Source: Deltaproteobacteria bacterium
GTDB lineage: Bacteria > Desulfobacterota > WTBG01 > CAIYCZ01 > CAIRTM01
DNA: 64,000 bases
Direction: 5' to 3'
Assembly: GCA_024276465.1 (NCBI GenBank)
Contig: JAJRXD010000068.1
Coordinates: 1 to 64,000 of the forward strand
Shown here: positions 29,579 through 37,726 of the stretch, one piece after another
Layout of the letters: each line of letters starts with the position of its first letter
Numbering within the stretch: position 1 is the first letter of the stretch
Notes under the pieces: generated by a model
What the model saw: only the letters and a program-made list of their open reading frames with translations
The model's database searches: none
What the model was told of the DNA's origin: nothing
Made by a program: the position numbers and the translations under genes

Positions 29579-30457
29579 GTGTTTAATAAAAAAAAATATT
29601 TAAAAATCATTGCCGAAAAACCCGATATTTTCGGGAACATTCCTGAAAGTATTCTTTCTGCAGAAAAGATAGAAGAACTTCGACAAATACCCCGCCTTGC
29701 AATTGGGGAGATCTACGGCGTTCCGGATATTGAAGGTTTGATGCACCTGTTGTCAGCAAAACAGCCTGATGCATTTCTGCCCACAGTTTCATATACCGGT
29801 ACTGAGTATGGAAGTTTTGACGCACTTGGACAATTGCTGAAAAGCATAAAGAAAACTGTTGAAAAAGAGCTGCGTATCTATTTTCTTGAACCACTGCTTG
29901 TTGGCTCACCGGGTTTCTGGTGGGCGCTTAACGGACGTTTCATGCGTGAGTTGAGTGACCGGTTTGGTTTCATAAACCCGTGTTTCGGATGCAGGCTTTA
30001 TTCGTTTGCATTACGGGTGCCATTGTGCAAAAAGCTTAATGCAAGCATTATCATTCCGGGTGACATGAAACCGGATAATGATGACTCCATAATTTTCACT
30101 TCATTGCCTGCTGTAAAATATTACCGCACTTTGATGTTAAGCTTTGGCATTGAGCTATGGTATGTTGACAGGAACTTTCAGACAGGTAATGCAAAAAAGA
30201 ATTCCCGGAATTTTCATGAAAATCCAAAAAATAGAATTCTCCGCTGTACATTTGAAGATAATTACAGGAAAATCGATGATTCATTTGAAAATTCATCAAA
30301 GCTGAATAAATATTTTGAAGTTTTTGCCCTTCCTGCTACTGGAAGGATTTTGAGCAGAACCCTGTCCGGGGCTGATGTGGACTATGTCAAAGAAGCATCT
30401 GACACACTCCTGCCGGTAGAAAAGGCAAAGAAAAAGAAAATTACCAGGAGGGCATAA
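29579..30457 (+). CDS. Unknown protein between epmA and tupB
   Basis: 292 residues starting at a GTG directly after the epmA stop. I do not recognise a named family with certainty. Features: LPTVSYTGTEYGSFDALGQLL near residue 65-85, NPCFGCRLYSFALRVPLCKKL near 135-155 with a CxxC, and IIIPGDMKPDNDD after it. This weakly recalls PP-loop ATPases, in which a CxxC follows the nucleotide domain, but no clear SGGxDS loop is visible. No signal peptide or membrane span; Lys-rich C terminus. Its start and end abut epmA and tupB (TAATG), so it is cotranscribed, and a tungstate- or cofactor-related role is a guess from context. Confidence 0.75.
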   Translation: MFNKKKYLKIIAEKPDIFGNIPESILSAEKIEELRQIPRLAIGEIYGVPDIEGLMHLLSAKQPDAFLPTVSYTGTEYGSFDALGQLLKSIKKTVEKELRIYFLEPLLVGSPGFWWALNGRFMRELSDRFGFINPCFGCRLYSFALRVPLCKKLNASIIIPGDMKPDNDDSIIFTSLPAVKYYRTLMLSFGIELWYVDRNFQTGNAKKNSRNFHENPKNRILRCTFEDNYRKIDDSFENSSKLNKYFEVFALPATGRILSRTLSGADVDYVKEASDTLLPVEKAKKKKITRRA

Positions 30458-32182: not shown

Positions 32183-32455
32183 ATGGCTGGAGATAATTAC
32201 AAGCCAAAGGTCATGGATGGCATAACTGTCCAGGACCTGGGGGATGAGGTAATGCTTTATGATTCAGGCAGGGAAAATGTCCATGTGCTTAACCATACTG
32301 CATCTGCCATATGGTACCTCTGTGATGGAAATCATACAATAGAAGAGATCCGGAAACATTTAGAGGAAAAATTTCCTGAAGTTCCAGGGTCGGATTTAAT
32401 TGATGATATTATTGCTACAATAGATAAGCTGAAGCAAAGAAATCTTGTTGTTTAA
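32183..32455 (+). CDS. PqqD-like protein (RiPP recognition element)
   Basis: 90 residues with the PqqD/RRE winged-helix pattern: MLYDSGRENVHVLNHTASAIWYLCDGNHTIEEI, then a helix pair ending in DIIATIDKLKQRNLVV. The NxTAxxIWxLCDGxxTxxEI motif is highly diagnostic. These domains bind the leader of a ribosomally made peptide and deliver it to a modifying enzyme. The ATG follows the tupC stop directly, so it is cotranscribed with the tup genes. Functionally it most likely serves the peptide gene 133 bases downstream and the kinase, protease and peptidase that follow. Confidence 0.88.
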   Translation: MAGDNYKPKVMDGITVQDLGDEVMLYDSGRENVHVLNHTASAIWYLCDGNHTIEEIRKHLEEKFPEVPGSDLIDDIIATIDKLKQRNLVV

Positions 32456-32491
32456 ACTCAAGGTATTGTTGAATTTTTCGATATATTAATC

Positions 32492-32520
32492 TTGACAATC
32501 CTTTTTTTATATTATAGAAT
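32492..32520 (+). promoter_or_regulatory. Near-consensus sigma70 promoter for the small peptide gene
   Basis: TTGACA (32492-32497) and TAGAAT (32515-32520) are exactly 17 bases apart. The -35 box is perfect and the -10 box has five of six matches. Transcription would begin near 32528, about 60 bases before the peptide ATG. It is among the best promoter matches in the window. Confidence 0.75.
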
Positions 32521-32588
32521 ATAGCTATTCATGAATTCATTACAATTGGATAAAAACGACCCAATATTATTAAATCAAGAGGTATGTC

Positions 32589-32690
32589 ATGGATAAAAAA
32601 AGAGAATACGAGAGACCGGAAATCATTACCTATACCGAAGAAGAAATAACGAATATTATCGGGCCTGCACAGACAATGACAAGTGGTTAA
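32589..32690 (+). CDS. 33-residue putative RiPP precursor peptide
   Basis: Short gene with its own promoter, an AAGAGG site 6 bases before the ATG, and a terminator after it. The acidic, polar leader contains Y7-x-x-P10-x-I12, matching the YxxPxL/I motif that PqqD-like RREs recognise in lasso-peptide leaders, followed by a TEEEI helix. The C-terminal end from G25 is GPAQTMTSG, small and rich in Ser/Thr, a plausible core. No Cys, and no Asp or Glu at core positions 7-9 as a lasso ring needs. It lies between the RRE gene and an HPr-kinase-like gene. Function is inferred from position and motif only. Confidence 0.7.
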   Translation: MDKKREYERPEIITYTEEEITNIIGPAQTMTSG

Positions 32691-32737
32691 AGAGTATCGC
32701 TGAATTTAAACAGGAAGATTAAAAAAACAATTTCAAT

Positions 32738-32776
32738 AAAAGGGGTTATACTGAAACAGTGTAACCCCTTTTTTAT
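32738..32776 (+). terminator. Rho-independent terminator after the peptide gene
   Basis: AAAAGGGGTTATACTG pairs with CAGTGTAACCCCTTTT (one T/G wobble) around an AAA loop, then a T run. It ends the peptide transcript 47 bases after its stop. Partial read-through would give low expression of the kinase, protease and peptidase genes relative to the peptide. Confidence 0.9.
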
Positions 32777-32791
32777 AATTTACGGTTTATA

Positions 32792-33937
32792 ATGTCTTTA
32801 AAACCTGAATCCAGACATTCTGATGAGATAAGAAAAATCGCAGTCCATAATTGCTGCTTTTCTTTTCTGAATATCGGCTTAATGCTGTTTTCAGACAGTA
32901 AGGCCAGGCTTGAAACATTTAAACTTCTGTACCAGAATTTTACAGTCAGGGCTCTGTCAGGAGATTATATTACATGTTACCTGTTAACCAGAACCTCTTT
33001 TTGTGATTGTCCGTGTGTAATTGTGGACACTGTTGTGTACCCGCTGACTGACGAATGTGATGTTGTTTCTTCTTCAGAGATGATAATTTTTCGTAAGATT
33101 ATTGATTGTATTGACAGTCATCTCCTTTTGCATGCAGGTGTTGTCTCAAGGGATGGCCGGGGATATATTATCTGTGCCCCGTCAGGCTTCGGTAAGACAA
33201 CAATGGTAATGGAACTTGTTTCAAGGGGTTATAAGTTTCTTTCTGATGAATACTGCCCGATAGGCATAGGTGATTGTAATATATCACCTTTTCCAAGAAG
33301 GGTCGGACTCAAGGATAACAGTCCGTTTTTGCGCCTCACGGATGTTGACAGGTCTGTTTTTATGGAACATGAAAACAAATATTTTGCAGATTGCAATGAG
33401 GTGTTTCCCGGCAGTCTTGGGAAAGAATGCATGCCAGGTTATCTTATAATGCTGAGCGCAGATTCTTTCAATCCTGTTTTGACCGATGAAAATATAATTG
33501 TTATGGGTGTGTTTAATGAAAACAAAAGCCTGATGGCTGAGCTTGAAAACATTGATGTTAAAGTTATAGATAAATCTGTAAAAGGTTTTTATCTTGCCTG
33601 CAGGCTGGATATTCCAAAACAGGGCGCGCTGACAGGAAAATTTAATAAACTGTGGAAGAAGTACAAGAGGGATATATTCTATGTTGCTGCTATTCCCGAA
33701 AAACAGCCCGGATTTACCAGGATCCCCTTTGTTGAGCCTCTGGCAAAATCCCGGGCATCACTTGAAATTCTTGCCTGCCTGATAAACAGATCACCTGCAG
33801 GGAAACTGCTGATGAGATATGATGGAAAAAGCATAAGCATGTTTCTTGAAGCAGGAAAACTTGTAAAAAATATAGAGTGTTATAAAATGACACCCGGGAA
33901 CCTGGGTGCAATGGTGGATTTAATTGACAAGCTTTAG
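32792..33937 (+). CDS. HPr-kinase-like P-loop protein
   Basis: 381 residues. The central domain reads HLLLHAGVVSRDGRGYIICAPSGFGKTTMVMELVSRGYKFLSDEYCPI: a beta strand with conserved His, a Walker A loop at about 131-137, and the SDE motif seen in HprK-type Ser kinases. The N-terminal 100 residues are not recognisable. HprK-like proteins next to PqqD-like genes occur in peptide clusters; in paeninodin-type lasso clusters they phosphorylate the C-terminal Ser of the precursor. The gene starts just after the terminator of the peptide gene and ends 1 base before the protease ATG. Substrate is inferred. Confidence 0.8.
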   Translation: MSLKPESRHSDEIRKIAVHNCCFSFLNIGLMLFSDSKARLETFKLLYQNFTVRALSGDYITCYLLTRTSFCDCPCVIVDTVVYPLTDECDVVSSSEMIIFRKIIDCIDSHLLLHAGVVSRDGRGYIICAPSGFGKTTMVMELVSRGYKFLSDEYCPIGIGDCNISPFPRRVGLKDNSPFLRLTDVDRSVFMEHENKYFADCNEVFPGSLGKECMPGYLIMLSADSFNPVLTDENIIVMGVFNENKSLMAELENIDVKVIDKSVKGFYLACRLDIPKQGALTGKFNKLWKKYKRDIFYVAAIPEKQPGFTRIPFVEPLAKSRASLEILACLINRSPAGKLLMRYDGKSISMFLEAGKLVKNIECYKMTPGNLGAMVDLIDKL

Positions 33938-33938
33938 C

Positions 33939-36900
33939 ATGAAGAATTCAGTGAAAAGATCAAATAGTCTATTAGCTGTGATAGTTGCTGTTTTTATCTG
34001 TAATGATGCAGCCTCTGCAGACAACATTACCATGGTTAGTCAAAATGATGACATGATCGTATTTGAAACGACACTTCCTTTTCCTGATATTTCTGATGTT
34101 AAGGGGGCTGACTTTAAGAAAATCAGTGTTAATGGTTTTGAAACAATAGCTGAAAATGGAGCACCGGGTGTAGTTACAAGGGGTGTAATGATTGAGATAC
34201 CACCAGGATGTGAGGTTGAACTGAAGGTCATAACACTTGAAAAAGCAGGTATTGAAAATTTTATTTTAGCGCCGTCTCCGGAGAGAGTTCTTGTCAAAAA
34301 CAGTAAAGGATTCAAGGTTGCTGACAAGCGGTTTATTGTCAACAAATCATTATACTCGATTAATGAATTTTATCCTGGAAAACTTGTTGAGGCTGAATTC
34401 ACAGGTTTTTTAAGGGGCAGAAGGGTTGCAAAGCTTAACCTGTTCCCGGTTCAATATAACCCTGTTTCCAGGCTTCTTGAAATACATGAAAAAATGAGGA
34501 TATATGTTAAATTTCGTTGCGCTGCGGACAAGGAATGTGACAGCCGTTCAAATAAATATGACCGCATTCCGGAAGAGAGCCCCTTTGAAAAAATATATGA
34601 ATCATGTCTGCTGAATTACAACCAGTTTGGAGATTCAGGGACTGCAAAGCACCTGGCACAAGAGGATTCTTCAGATGGTTTCTGGTACGCAGAACTTAAG
34701 CAGAGCCCTTTTGCAGTTAAGGCAGCAGTTATGGAAGAAGGTATTTGTAAAATAACGTATGATGACCTGGCTTTTTCAGGAATTGACCTTTCGGGTACCA
34801 CTAATGAGAATATTTCCGTGGCAAACCAGGGACAGGAAGTTGCCATTTATTGCAGCGGCACAGGCCAGTTTTTACCGGGTGACTACATCCTTTTTTATTC
34901 TGAATCCTTTAAATCCCTCTACAGCAGGAAAAATATCTACTGGATTTACCAGGGGGGGGGGAACGGAAAAAGAATGCCTGAAAAAGCAGGCAGACCTGTT
35001 TCCGGCTATCCGGTACAAAACTCATTTAAAAACATCCTCCATGCTGAGAAAGACACAGAGTACTGGGCCAACATTCTGCCCTATGATGAAGGTGTTGACC
35101 ACTGGTTCTGGGACAAACTGTCAGTTATTGAACCGCCTCTTAAAAAAAACTTTTCTGTTAATTTGAGAAATATTGACAAATCATCAGGCGGTTATTCCAT
35201 GAAGTTAAACCTGAGGGGTGAAACCAACACACCTCAAAACCCTGACCATCATACTAAACTATTTGTGAATGGGAATTTAACTGATGATTTTACCTGGGAA
35301 GGGCAGGTTGAGTTAATACAGGTTGTGGATAACATTGACCCGTCATTTTTTATCGAAGGTGACAACACAGTAACTGTTGAGGCTGTTGATGACACGGGTG
35401 CTACGGTGGATTCCTATTACATTAACTGGTTTGACATTGAATTTCGTGATCTGTTTGTTGCAGAAAACGATTTGCTGAAGTTTTACAGTGAGGGAACTGG
35501 TGGTGTAACATATGAGATTTCAGGTTTCAGCAGCAATGATGTGTGGAGCTTTAACGTTACGGATCCCGCCAATGTCAGCATTATTACAAATGCTTCAGTT
35601 GCTCAAACCGGGTCAACCTGGAAAATGAGTTTTGAGGATGAAGATTCAGACAACAGAACATATTATGCCATCAGCTCCAGTGCTTTCAAGTCTCCATCTG
35701 AAATGATAATTGATGAACCTTCTGATTTGAGAGCCGGTAGAGATAGTGTTGACTACATAATTATTTCGCACGAAAATTTCTACGATGCCATACAGGAACT
35801 TAAACAATACAGAGAGTCAAAAGGCCTGGCAGTAGAAATTGTGAAAATCCAGGACATTTATGATGAGTTTTCATACGGAATAAAGGATGCCGAAGCAATT
35901 AAACATTTTTTAACTCATGCCTATAACAGCTGGCATAAAACAGATCATCCAACCTATCTCCTGATAGTTGGCGACGCATCGCTTGACTACAGGGATGACA
36001 AGGGCAATTTTGCTTTCGGCAATGAAGACCTTGTTCCGACTTACATATTTCAGACAAATATAATTGGTGATACTCCTACAGATAACTGGTTTGTGTGTGT
36101 TGATGGCTCAGATTATCTGCCGGACATGTTTGTGGGCAGGTTCTGTGTGAAGGCAGAGGAAGATTTGCGGAAAATCATAGATAAAATTAAAAAATACGAA
36201 AAGGCAAAGTTTTCGGCATGGAATGAAAAAGTTGTTTTAGTGGCTGATGATGAAACCATGTTTGAAAGCGTTTCTGATGCTCTGGCAGCATTGCTTCCTG
36301 ACGGATTTTCTGCTGAAAAGCTCTATTTAAGCCAGTATGAAAATGTTAAACCTGCAACTGATGATTTGATTGATTACATTAATGCCGGTGCTGTTATTAC
36401 CAACTATACAGGGCACGGGCATATCGATGAATGGGCTTCAGAGAATCTTTTCCAGACACCCGATGAAAGGGTGGGAAATGACAGAAATGATGTGGACAGG
36501 TTAACAAACCAGGACAAACTTACTTTTTTAATAACATTAAACTGCCTGAATGGTTTTTTTGCACACTGGGTTGATGACTACTCCCTTGCCGAGGAGTTTT
36601 TTCGTGCTGAAAACAGGGGTTCCATTGCCTGTTTTGCACCCACAAGCACTGGCTATCCATCCGAGCACAGAGTGTTAGCAGAAAATGTTTTCAGAATGTT
36701 TTTTAAAGAAGAAAACAATCTGCTGGGTTCTCTGGTGACCGCTGCAAAGATAAGTTCCTACAGTAAAATTGCTTCCCGGGACATGATTGAAACTTTTACA
36801 CTTTTTGGCGATCCTGCAACAGAGCTGAAACTTGCAGTCGATTCTTCTGTCAGTGATTTTGAACTGACTAACCCTGAGGACCAGGCGGTTCTGCCTGAGA

Positions 36901-37181
36901 CACCCCCCGGAACCTTCTCCTGGATAGAGAGTTTATATGAACAATTTAAAGTGCAATATTCAACCGGACCTGCATTTACATCTGAAACTACCATCACTGT
37001 CCCGCTTTTTCCTTTTGTGACTGTTGCTTCAGGTGAATATACCCCCAATATTTTTGTCTGGTCTATCCTGAATATCATGTGCTCTCGTAATAAAATACTT
37101 TACTGGCGTGTAATTGCATATGATGAAGATTTTAACCCAATGAGAGAATCCGATTACAGAAGTTTTTCAATTAAAAAATGA
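33939..37181 (+). CDS. Secreted gingipain-type cysteine protease (peptidase family C25)
   Basis: About 1080 residues. The ATG at 33939 opens a signal peptide ending near NDAASAD; the TTG at 33924 is less likely. A propeptide-like region (about 30-230) and beta domains precede the catalytic part, marked by YLLIVGDASLDYRD. The catalytic His is in NYTGHGHIDEW (about H826) and the nucleophile in TLNCLNGFF (about C869), matching the GHG and C-x-NG patterns of gingipains. The C terminus is an FN3-like fold without an obvious type IX sorting domain. Directly follows the kinase gene and overlaps the signal peptidase gene by 4 bases. Confidence 0.85.
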   Translation: MKNSVKRSNSLLAVIVAVFICNDAASADNITMVSQNDDMIVFETTLPFPDISDVKGADFKKISVNGFETIAENGAPGVVTRGVMIEIPPGCEVELKVITLEKAGIENFILAPSPERVLVKNSKGFKVADKRFIVNKSLYSINEFYPGKLVEAEFTGFLRGRRVAKLNLFPVQYNPVSRLLEIHEKMRIYVKFRCAADKECDSRSNKYDRIPEESPFEKIYESCLLNYNQFGDSGTAKHLAQEDSSDGFWYAELKQSPFAVKAAVMEEGICKITYDDLAFSGIDLSGTTNENISVANQGQEVAIYCSGTGQFLPGDYILFYSESFKSLYSRKNIYWIYQGGGNGKRMPEKAGRPVSGYPVQNSFKNILHAEKDTEYWANILPYDEGVDHWFWDKLSVIEPPLKKNFSVNLRNIDKSSGGYSMKLNLRGETNTPQNPDHHTKLFVNGNLTDDFTWEGQVELIQVVDNIDPSFFIEGDNTVTVEAVDDTGATVDSYYINWFDIEFRDLFVAENDLLKFYSEGTGGVTYEISGFSSNDVWSFNVTDPANVSIITNASVAQTGSTWKMSFEDEDSDNRTYYAISSSAFKSPSEMIIDEPSDLRAGRDSVDYIIISHENFYDAIQELKQYRESKGLAVEIVKIQDIYDEFSYGIKDAEAIKHFLTHAYNSWHKTDHPTYLLIVGDASLDYRDDKGNFAFGNEDLVPTYIFQTNIIGDTPTDNWFVCVDGSDYLPDMFVGRFCVKAEEDLRKIIDKIKKYEKAKFSAWNEKVVLVADDETMFESVSDALAALLPDGFSAEKLYLSQYENVKPATDDLIDYINAGAVITNYTGHGHIDEWASENLFQTPDERVGNDRNDVDRLTNQDKLTFLITLNCLNGFFAHWVDDYSLAEEFFRAENRGSIACFAPTSTGYPSEHRVLAENVFRMFFKEENNLLGSLVTAAKISSYSKIASRDMIETFTLFGDPATELKLAVDSSVSDFELTNPEDQAVLPETPPGTFSWIESLYEQFKVQYSTGPAFTSETTITVPLFPFVTVASGEYTPNIFVWSILNIMCSRNKILYWRVIAYDEDFNPMRESDYRSFSIKK

Positions 37182-37726
37182 ATGACAAAGAGAAAATCAG
37201 AGAAAATATTCTGTCCCTGTGGGGAAAAGAAGAAAAAGAAAGGACCATAACAGTTCAGGGAACAAGCATGATTCCTCTTATTAAAGAGGGTGATTCAATT
37301 ACATTCAGACCTTTATTTAAGCTGGAAAAAATAAAAATAGGGGATATTGCTGTCTTTAATCTCAGGTCCTCTCTGGTGGTTCACAGAATAGTGGATCGAA
37401 TCTGCAGGGAGGGTAAAATCTGGTTCAGGGAAAAAGGTGATAATAACTTCCTGCCGTCAGTTGTTCCTGAAAAGGCAGTATTAGGCAAGGTTGTAAGAAT
37501 AGGTAAAAAGAGTTTTTGCATCCATCTTACAAGCTTGTTCTGGACCATTGCAAACAGTCTGATGGGATGGTACTGGAAGATCTTCTTTATGGTATTAGGA
37601 TTTACTGTTAAGACAAAGAAAAAATATTTTTATAAGAATAAAACCAATTATGCAGCTTCATTAAATAAAAAAATTCTGCATTTCCTGATCAGGCTTCCTC
37701 TAAAATTATTCCGGCCGAAGCATTGA
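37178..37726 (+). CDS. S26-family signal peptidase-like protein
   Basis: 182 residues. The catalytic pattern is that of the archaeal/ER type (S26B): GTSMIPLI with Ser30, VVHRIV with His69, and EKGDNN with Asp88; the Lys-type general base of bacterial LepB is not apparent. KIGDIAVFNL matches the usual GDIVvf strand. The only strong hydrophobic segment is C-terminal, around 131-157 (SLFWTIANSLMGWYWKIFFMVLGF). ATGA overlap with the C25 protease gene indicates translational coupling. It is probably dedicated to this cluster rather than the general signal peptidase. Confidence 0.85.
   Translation: MNDKEKIRENILSLWGKEEKERTITVQGTSMIPLIKEGDSITFRPLFKLEKIKIGDIAVFNLRSSLVVHRIVDRICREGKIWFREKGDNNFLPSVVPEKAVLGKVVRIGKKSFCIHLTSLFWTIANSLMGWYWKIFFMVLGFTVKTKKKYFYKNKTNYAASLNKKILHFLIRLPLKLFRPKH

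Follow-up and report, generated by a model that had tools for sequence, protein, structure and literature searches.

A conserved peptide cassette with an HprK-like kinase and a PorU-like protease co-occurs with a family of secreted proteins in Thermodesulfobacteriota

Genes of the cassette

The window analysed here, a stretch of 64,000 nucleotides, contains five adjacent genes, all on the forward strand. The first (32183..32455) encodes a PqqD-like RiPP recognition element (RRE) of 90 residues, matching Pfam PF05402 at 53.7 bits (cut-off 23.4). The second (32589..32690) encodes a precursor peptide of 33 residues, MDKKREYERPEIITYTEEEITNIIGPAQTMTSG, with a YxxPxI leader, an invariant GPA and a short Cys-free tail. 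A sigma-70-like promoter (TTGACA-17-TAGAAT, 32492..32520, forward) with an 11/12 consensus match lies upstream of the peptide gene, and an intrinsic terminator (32738..32772, forward; a 16-pair hairpin and then a T run) lies between the peptide and kinase genes, both calls being consensus matches only. The remaining three genes, which run end-to-end or overlap, encode an HprK/PEPCK-fold kinase-like protein of 381 residues (32792..33937), a secreted PorU-like C25 cysteine protease of 1080 residues (33939..37181) and an S26/S24-like serine peptidase of 182 residues (37178..37726). An earlier sequence-only reading of this DNA had described the five genes, the close packing of the last three and the peptide's own promoter and terminator, and in these respects the description holds. 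It had also called the set an export system; this label is unproven, and the cassette contains no exporter. An Rfam search gave no match.

The Pfam match of the HprK-like protein is below cut-off. Its AlphaFold model (pLDDT 82) matches the PEPCK and HPr kinase folds, and His114, Lys135 of the P-loop APSGFGKTT (129-137) and Asp152 are invariant in the alignment of relatives. With the fold and the catalytic His, P-loop Lys and Asp all present in the model, it can be placed among the HprK/PEPCK-fold kinases, its activity being predicted. Its motif is consistent with the one given for BsfK (PMC10368454).

The C25 protease matches PF01364 at 313.9 bits (cut-off 23). Its likely start is the ATG at 33939 rather than the TTG at 33924, which yields a Sec-type signal peptide as read by eye; an N-terminal propeptide domain is present, and His826 and Cys869 are invariant in an alignment of six sequences. 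The nearest solved structure is PorU (6za2, E 1.6e-18), with the gingipains next, and the protein matches the type IX secretion (T9SS) PorU model with E 2e-85 and 287 bits, below the curated cut-off of 420. Its earlier description as gingipain-type is thus right as to the peptidase C25 family, but the protein is nearer to PorU than to gingipain. The S26-like protein exceeds the cut-off for TIGR02228 (56.9 against 51.85 bits) and has the Ser/His/Asp set previously proposed for it, at Ser30, His69 and Asp88; hydropathy gives no N-terminal transmembrane helix. In the S26-like protein of G013 (L035 14117-14620) the catalytic Ser is replaced by Cys (GRCMIPL), with the His and Asp kept.

Upstream, at 29579-30457, the window encodes a CxxC-containing protein of 292 residues with no family match, which is syntenic in G002, G003 and G010, between EpmA-like and tungstate transporter/PqqD genes. 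This gene and the tungstate transporter genes were considered as cassette parts and dropped, being syntenic only in part of the class.

Distribution of the cassette

Here G000 is the window genome, and other G-numbers are sampled genomes of the phylum (395 in total); nearly all genomes compared are fragmented draft MAGs. Full-length kinase homologues are found in six other genomes of the window's class (17 class genomes) and in the distant G091 and G337. Around them the order PqqD, peptide, kinase, C25, S26 is kept, subject to contig ends, so that the cassette is present in seven genomes of this small class. In the two distant Thermodesulfobacteriota lineages it is reordered, as in G337, or incomplete. 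The PqqD gene adjoins the peptide gene in G002, G003, G006 and G010, and also in the G337 locus; G013 and G091 showed no PqqD gene next to that of the peptide. The proposal that a short YxxPxI peptide, recognised through an RRE, belongs with the HprK-like kinase, C25 and S26 genes is therefore borne out by the neighbourhoods of related genomes.

Weaker candidates were set aside. The kinase matches in G034, G049, G061, G102, G136, G173 and G330 have only the kinase core in common with the window protein. A locus in G054 of exopolysaccharide type contains PqqD, HprK-like, radical SAM and nucleotidyltransferase-like genes and lacks a peptide of this kind; a twin-arginine-like small ORF lies beside it (L024 4209-7832). 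A first scan of public contigs with the kinase alone gave no match. An alignment-based scan returned, among the matches listed, only the lineages already known and a Thiomargarita protein sharing the P-loop region, and the public records with kinase homologues are, again among the matches listed, metagenome bins labelled Thermodesulfobacteriota, Deltaproteobacteria or Proteobacteria. The peptide cassette is rare among bacteria.

The peptide family

A profile search with the peptide family recovers the window genome's own peptide with E 3e-19 and the cassette peptides of eight other genomes with E 5e-19 to 5e-22, and finds homologues in 10 further sampled genomes of the phylum and in G430. The alignment gives the consensus YxxPx[IVLT]..Y...[ED][ED]I...[IVL]GPA. 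Values of pN/pS range from 0.08 to 0.25, indicating strong purifying selection. Among eight peptide copies of G010 the ratio is 0.08; the copies outside its cassette, referred to here as satellites, have pS 0.63 and pN 0.05, and are therefore not recent copies. Since synonymous sites are near saturation while amino-acid changes are few, the clear conclusion is that the peptide gene is translated and selected; conservation and pN/pS together rule out a chance ORF. The sequence-only reading had named as fatal to itself a peptide gene not kept beside the RRE and kinase in relatives, and what is found is the opposite, with the peptide conserved in the cassettes of eight other genomes.

By the profile search G010 and G004 have nine peptide copies apiece, G013 has four, G006 two and G009 one. 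One G004 satellite (L114 4129-4236) has a TAG stop directly after GPA, and is for this reason probably a broken copy. In G013 a second PqqD gene and a divergent Cys-bearing peptide lie at a contig end (L127 5732-6187), perhaps a paralogous cassette.

A radical SAM maturase in most relatives

In G003, G010, G013, G091 and G337 a radical SAM/SPASM protein of about 460-490 residues is encoded between the peptide and the kinase. In G002 one contig ends with the peptide gene followed by that of the radical SAM protein, and the kinase ends another contig. These proteins have an N-terminal PqqD-like region, a CxxxCxxC motif and a SPASM end, and match radical SAM peptide maturases. No close homologue was found in the genomes G000, G006 and G008. 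The presence of the enzyme goes with a feature of the peptide: a Cys directly follows GPA[QH][TA] in 6/6 cassette peptides with the enzyme and in 0/3 without it, these three having Met, Tyr or Val. The maturase is thus seen beside a Cys-bearing precursor in six related loci and not in the window genome. The correlation may reflect only one or two losses, on which the tree gives no resolution. Given that both maturase and Cys are absent in the window and present in most relatives, the window holds a reduced radical SAM RiPP system. The view that the kinase is the sole modifying enzyme consequently stands for this reduced form, but most relatives add a PqqD-radical SAM-SPASM maturase.

Among the peptides of the three cassettes without radical SAM, pN/pS is 0.16. 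These lineages form a natural experiment, with the enzyme and the cassette-peptide Cys both lost and the peptide still under selection. It is worth adding that the second peptide of G006 has the Cys and no Tyr, though no maturase was found in that genome. In G008 the peptide and a secreted protein encoded in the radical SAM slot have identical ends (GVEFD), owing to a 29-nt direct repeat (L020 855-883 and 2092-2120). The repeat extends beyond both stop codons, which makes a duplication at the DNA level more likely than a shared C-terminal signal.

Pairing of peptide genes with CTD proteins

Of the extra peptide copies, 19/22 adjoin a gene for a secreted protein with a common C-terminal domain (CTD). 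This is true of all satellites in G004 (9/9), G010 (8/8) and G009 (1/1) and of 1/3 in G013, the neighbour of the G006 satellite being masked. The product of the neighbouring gene has a predicted signal sequence, and usually this gene shares the satellite's strand and lies 17-90 nt upstream of it. CTD genes make up about 1-3% of all genes, and by this rough estimate the adjacency is far from chance. The pairing was missed by the sequence-only reading because it lies outside the window.

The CTD comprises about 100 residues at the extreme C-terminus, and ends in ...HGPVSATPR[LW]I[YF]Gx(n)K. Of 65 tails read from the seven class genomes that have the cassette or peptides and PR-type cargo, 58 contain P[RK]. 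The paired proteins are otherwise diverse, and include a multihaem cytochrome, FG-GAP, MopE-like, lamin-tail and other proteins. No good match to the CTD was found in Pfam or the PDB; weak matches to Ig/Fn3-type domains suggest that it may be a beta-sandwich. A near-invariant Gly-Pro-[Ala/Val] close to the C-terminus is found both in the peptide (GPA[QH][TA]) and in the cargo tail (HGP[VA]xAxPR), which from the sequences may be chance or a common recognition site.

The CTD (E<=1e-15) is present in 9/9 genomes with a kinase cassette and in 8/386 others (Fisher p 4e-14, 395 phylum genomes); of these eight, G009 has C25 fragments and G004 has peptides. The numbers of CTD proteins are 48 in G002, 34 in G013, 31 in G004, 27 in G010, 10 each in G000 and G003, and 9 in G009, with few or none in the remaining class genomes. 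Nine of the approximately ten in the window genome were read, and 9/9 have the P-[RK] tail. The cassette of G337 itself includes a CTD gene, and G091 and the distant G430 each have one upstream of the peptide gene.

The association is not uniform. The only peptide gene of the window genome does not adjoin a CTD gene; G004 and G010 have 58 CTD genes together against 17 satellite peptides, so that most CTD genes have no peptide neighbour; G004, in an assembly 93% complete, has 31 CTD genes and nine peptides with no kinase or C25 match; and in G006 and G008, which keep the cassette, the CTD is represented by a single divergent protein per genome that lacks the PR tail. The window genome has a second C25 gene, on contig C135, with a CTD cargo gene immediately downstream (L220 6009-8633 and 4259-5704), and further C25 genes are also present in G002 and G010.

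Proposed function

What is established, at the gene level, is that the cassette and the CTD cargo exist, that they co-occur and that peptide and cargo genes are physically paired. Because peptide genes in related genomes lie beside genes for CTD secreted proteins, the probable role of the cassette is to process or decorate a whole class of exported proteins, and not to produce an antibiotic. Our preferred reading, to which we give slightly better than even odds (roughly 0.55), is that the window cassette is a reduced form of a conserved peptide-coupled system which processes or anchors CTD cargo.

Beyond this we infer phosphorylation, leader cleavage, cargo cleavage and any joining of peptide to cargo, in the following order. 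The PqqD-like RRE would bind the YxxPxI leader of the 33-residue precursor, as in lasso RRE systems. The core beyond the invariant Gly-Pro-Ala would then be modified: in most relatives the radical SAM/SPASM enzyme would act on the Cys after GPA[QH][TA], and the HprK-like enzyme would probably phosphorylate a Ser/Thr near the same motif, as BsfK and PadeK suggest. Precedents for the RRE and kinase steps are the lasso-kinase systems (PMC10368454, PMC8498205). The S26-like peptidase would cut off the leader, leaving a peptide with an N-terminal Gly. Finally, the secreted PorU-like C25 protease would act on the cargo CTD, probably near the conserved ...A-x-P-R-[hydrophobic] end, for which PorU offers precedents (PMC8545088, PMC4560394), and the peptide product would join in this step or become attached to the cargo. 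Arg-specific cleavage at ATPR was considered and put aside as only a guess, because the S1 Asp of RgpB and the gingipains is not kept in the C25 protease when aligned by eye.

The first alternative is an ordinary RiPP pathway. It would secrete the peptide as a natural product or signal, matured by the C25 and S26 proteases, and the CTD proteins would be bystanders whose surroundings duplicated together with the peptide. The RRE, the leader motif, the terminator after the precursor and the radical SAM maturase of relatives are all usual RiPP layout. However, the satellites adjoin unrelated cargo with only the CTD in common, and do so in several lineages; within a genome their tails hardly differ, with synonymous changes close to saturation, unlike those of diversifying products; and the cassettes always co-occur with the CTD family. 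We therefore regard this alternative as unlikely.

A bolder version of the preferred reading is that a PorU-like transpeptidase trims the C-terminal tails of the cargo and joins it to the N-terminal Gly of the modified peptide, so that the RiPP is an anchor or tag for surface proteins. The peptide would on this hypothesis be ribosomally made, and radical-SAM-modified and/or phosphorylated. In this specific form the proposal is speculative, and we consider it unlikely.

Secreted natural products and cofactors are regarded as the main output of RiPP pathways. In the present family the precursor genes are scattered and paired with those of CTD exported proteins, and the cassette encodes a protease akin to the T9SS sortase. 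Should the peptide modify, anchor or escort the cargo, RiPP chemistry would gain a new use, and Thermodesulfobacteriota would have a new route of protein sorting. The gene set and the cargo list, which includes a multihaem cytochrome, are testable. No description of such a system was found in the open-access literature, and novelty was set against NCBIfam, Pfam and the PDB too.

Comparison with known systems

The type IX system of Porphyromonas gingivalis also combines a PorU-related C25 protease with a secreted protein family sharing a C-terminal domain, and the C25 protease could be a true PorU and the CTD a secretion signal, with the peptide modules added for regulation or unrelated to it. 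The sub-cut-off match to the PorU model and the match to the PorU structure would fit this, as would a C-terminal domain that marks a large exported cargo set. Against it, T9SS CTD models do not match the CTD, and peptide-handling genes are always part of the cassette, peptide-modifying ones among them. A type IX-like system is thus quite improbable. SprA was matched in 0/10 genomes, and the control set was equally empty. The T9SS acceptor is A-LPS (PMC8545088).

Lasso clusters with an HprK-like kinase (paeninodin PadeK, Bradymonas bsf) share with the cassette a PqqD-type RRE, predicted here to bind the leader, a YxxPx[LI] leader, with Gly 18 residues after the Tyr (17 in lasso peptides, PMC10368454), and the kinase; G013 also has a nucleotidyltransferase-like neighbour. 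However, a kinase-tailored lasso pathway or its degenerate remnant, in which kinase and RRE phosphorylate the precursor as in BsfK/BsfB1, is highly improbable and largely refuted: the Asn-synthetase-like macrolactam cyclase (C) and the transglutaminase-like B2 protease occur neither in the window nor in any related locus read, the window core GPAQTMTSG has no Asp/Glu at positions 7-9 as ring acceptor, and the family has instead a radical SAM maturase (in relatives), C25 and S26 genes, and multi-copy precursors linked to cargo.

SynChlorMet (Scm) and HPr-rel-A cassettes (NCBIfam) likewise combine an HprK-like protein with a PqqD-like chaperone, and Scm also has radical SAM/SPASM proteins. Here the equivalog cut-offs are missed by far: the kinase scores 64.7 against 200 for HprK_rel_A, and the PqqD protein 19.9 against 35 bits (TIGR04352/TIGR04353); ScmD reaches 38.9 against 100 and ScmC 17.7 against 125, and none of ScmC, ScmD, ScmE and ScmF is above its cut-off.

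Finally, PEP-CTERM/exosortase and other C-terminal sorting systems resemble the present one in that many diverse exported proteins bear a common C-terminal tag, and in G091 and G337 a transmembrane helix and a basic tail come after the CTD, as there. In the window's class, by contrast, the tail is PR, a few hydrophobic residues and a basic end with no transmembrane helix, and the candidate enzyme is the C25 protease.
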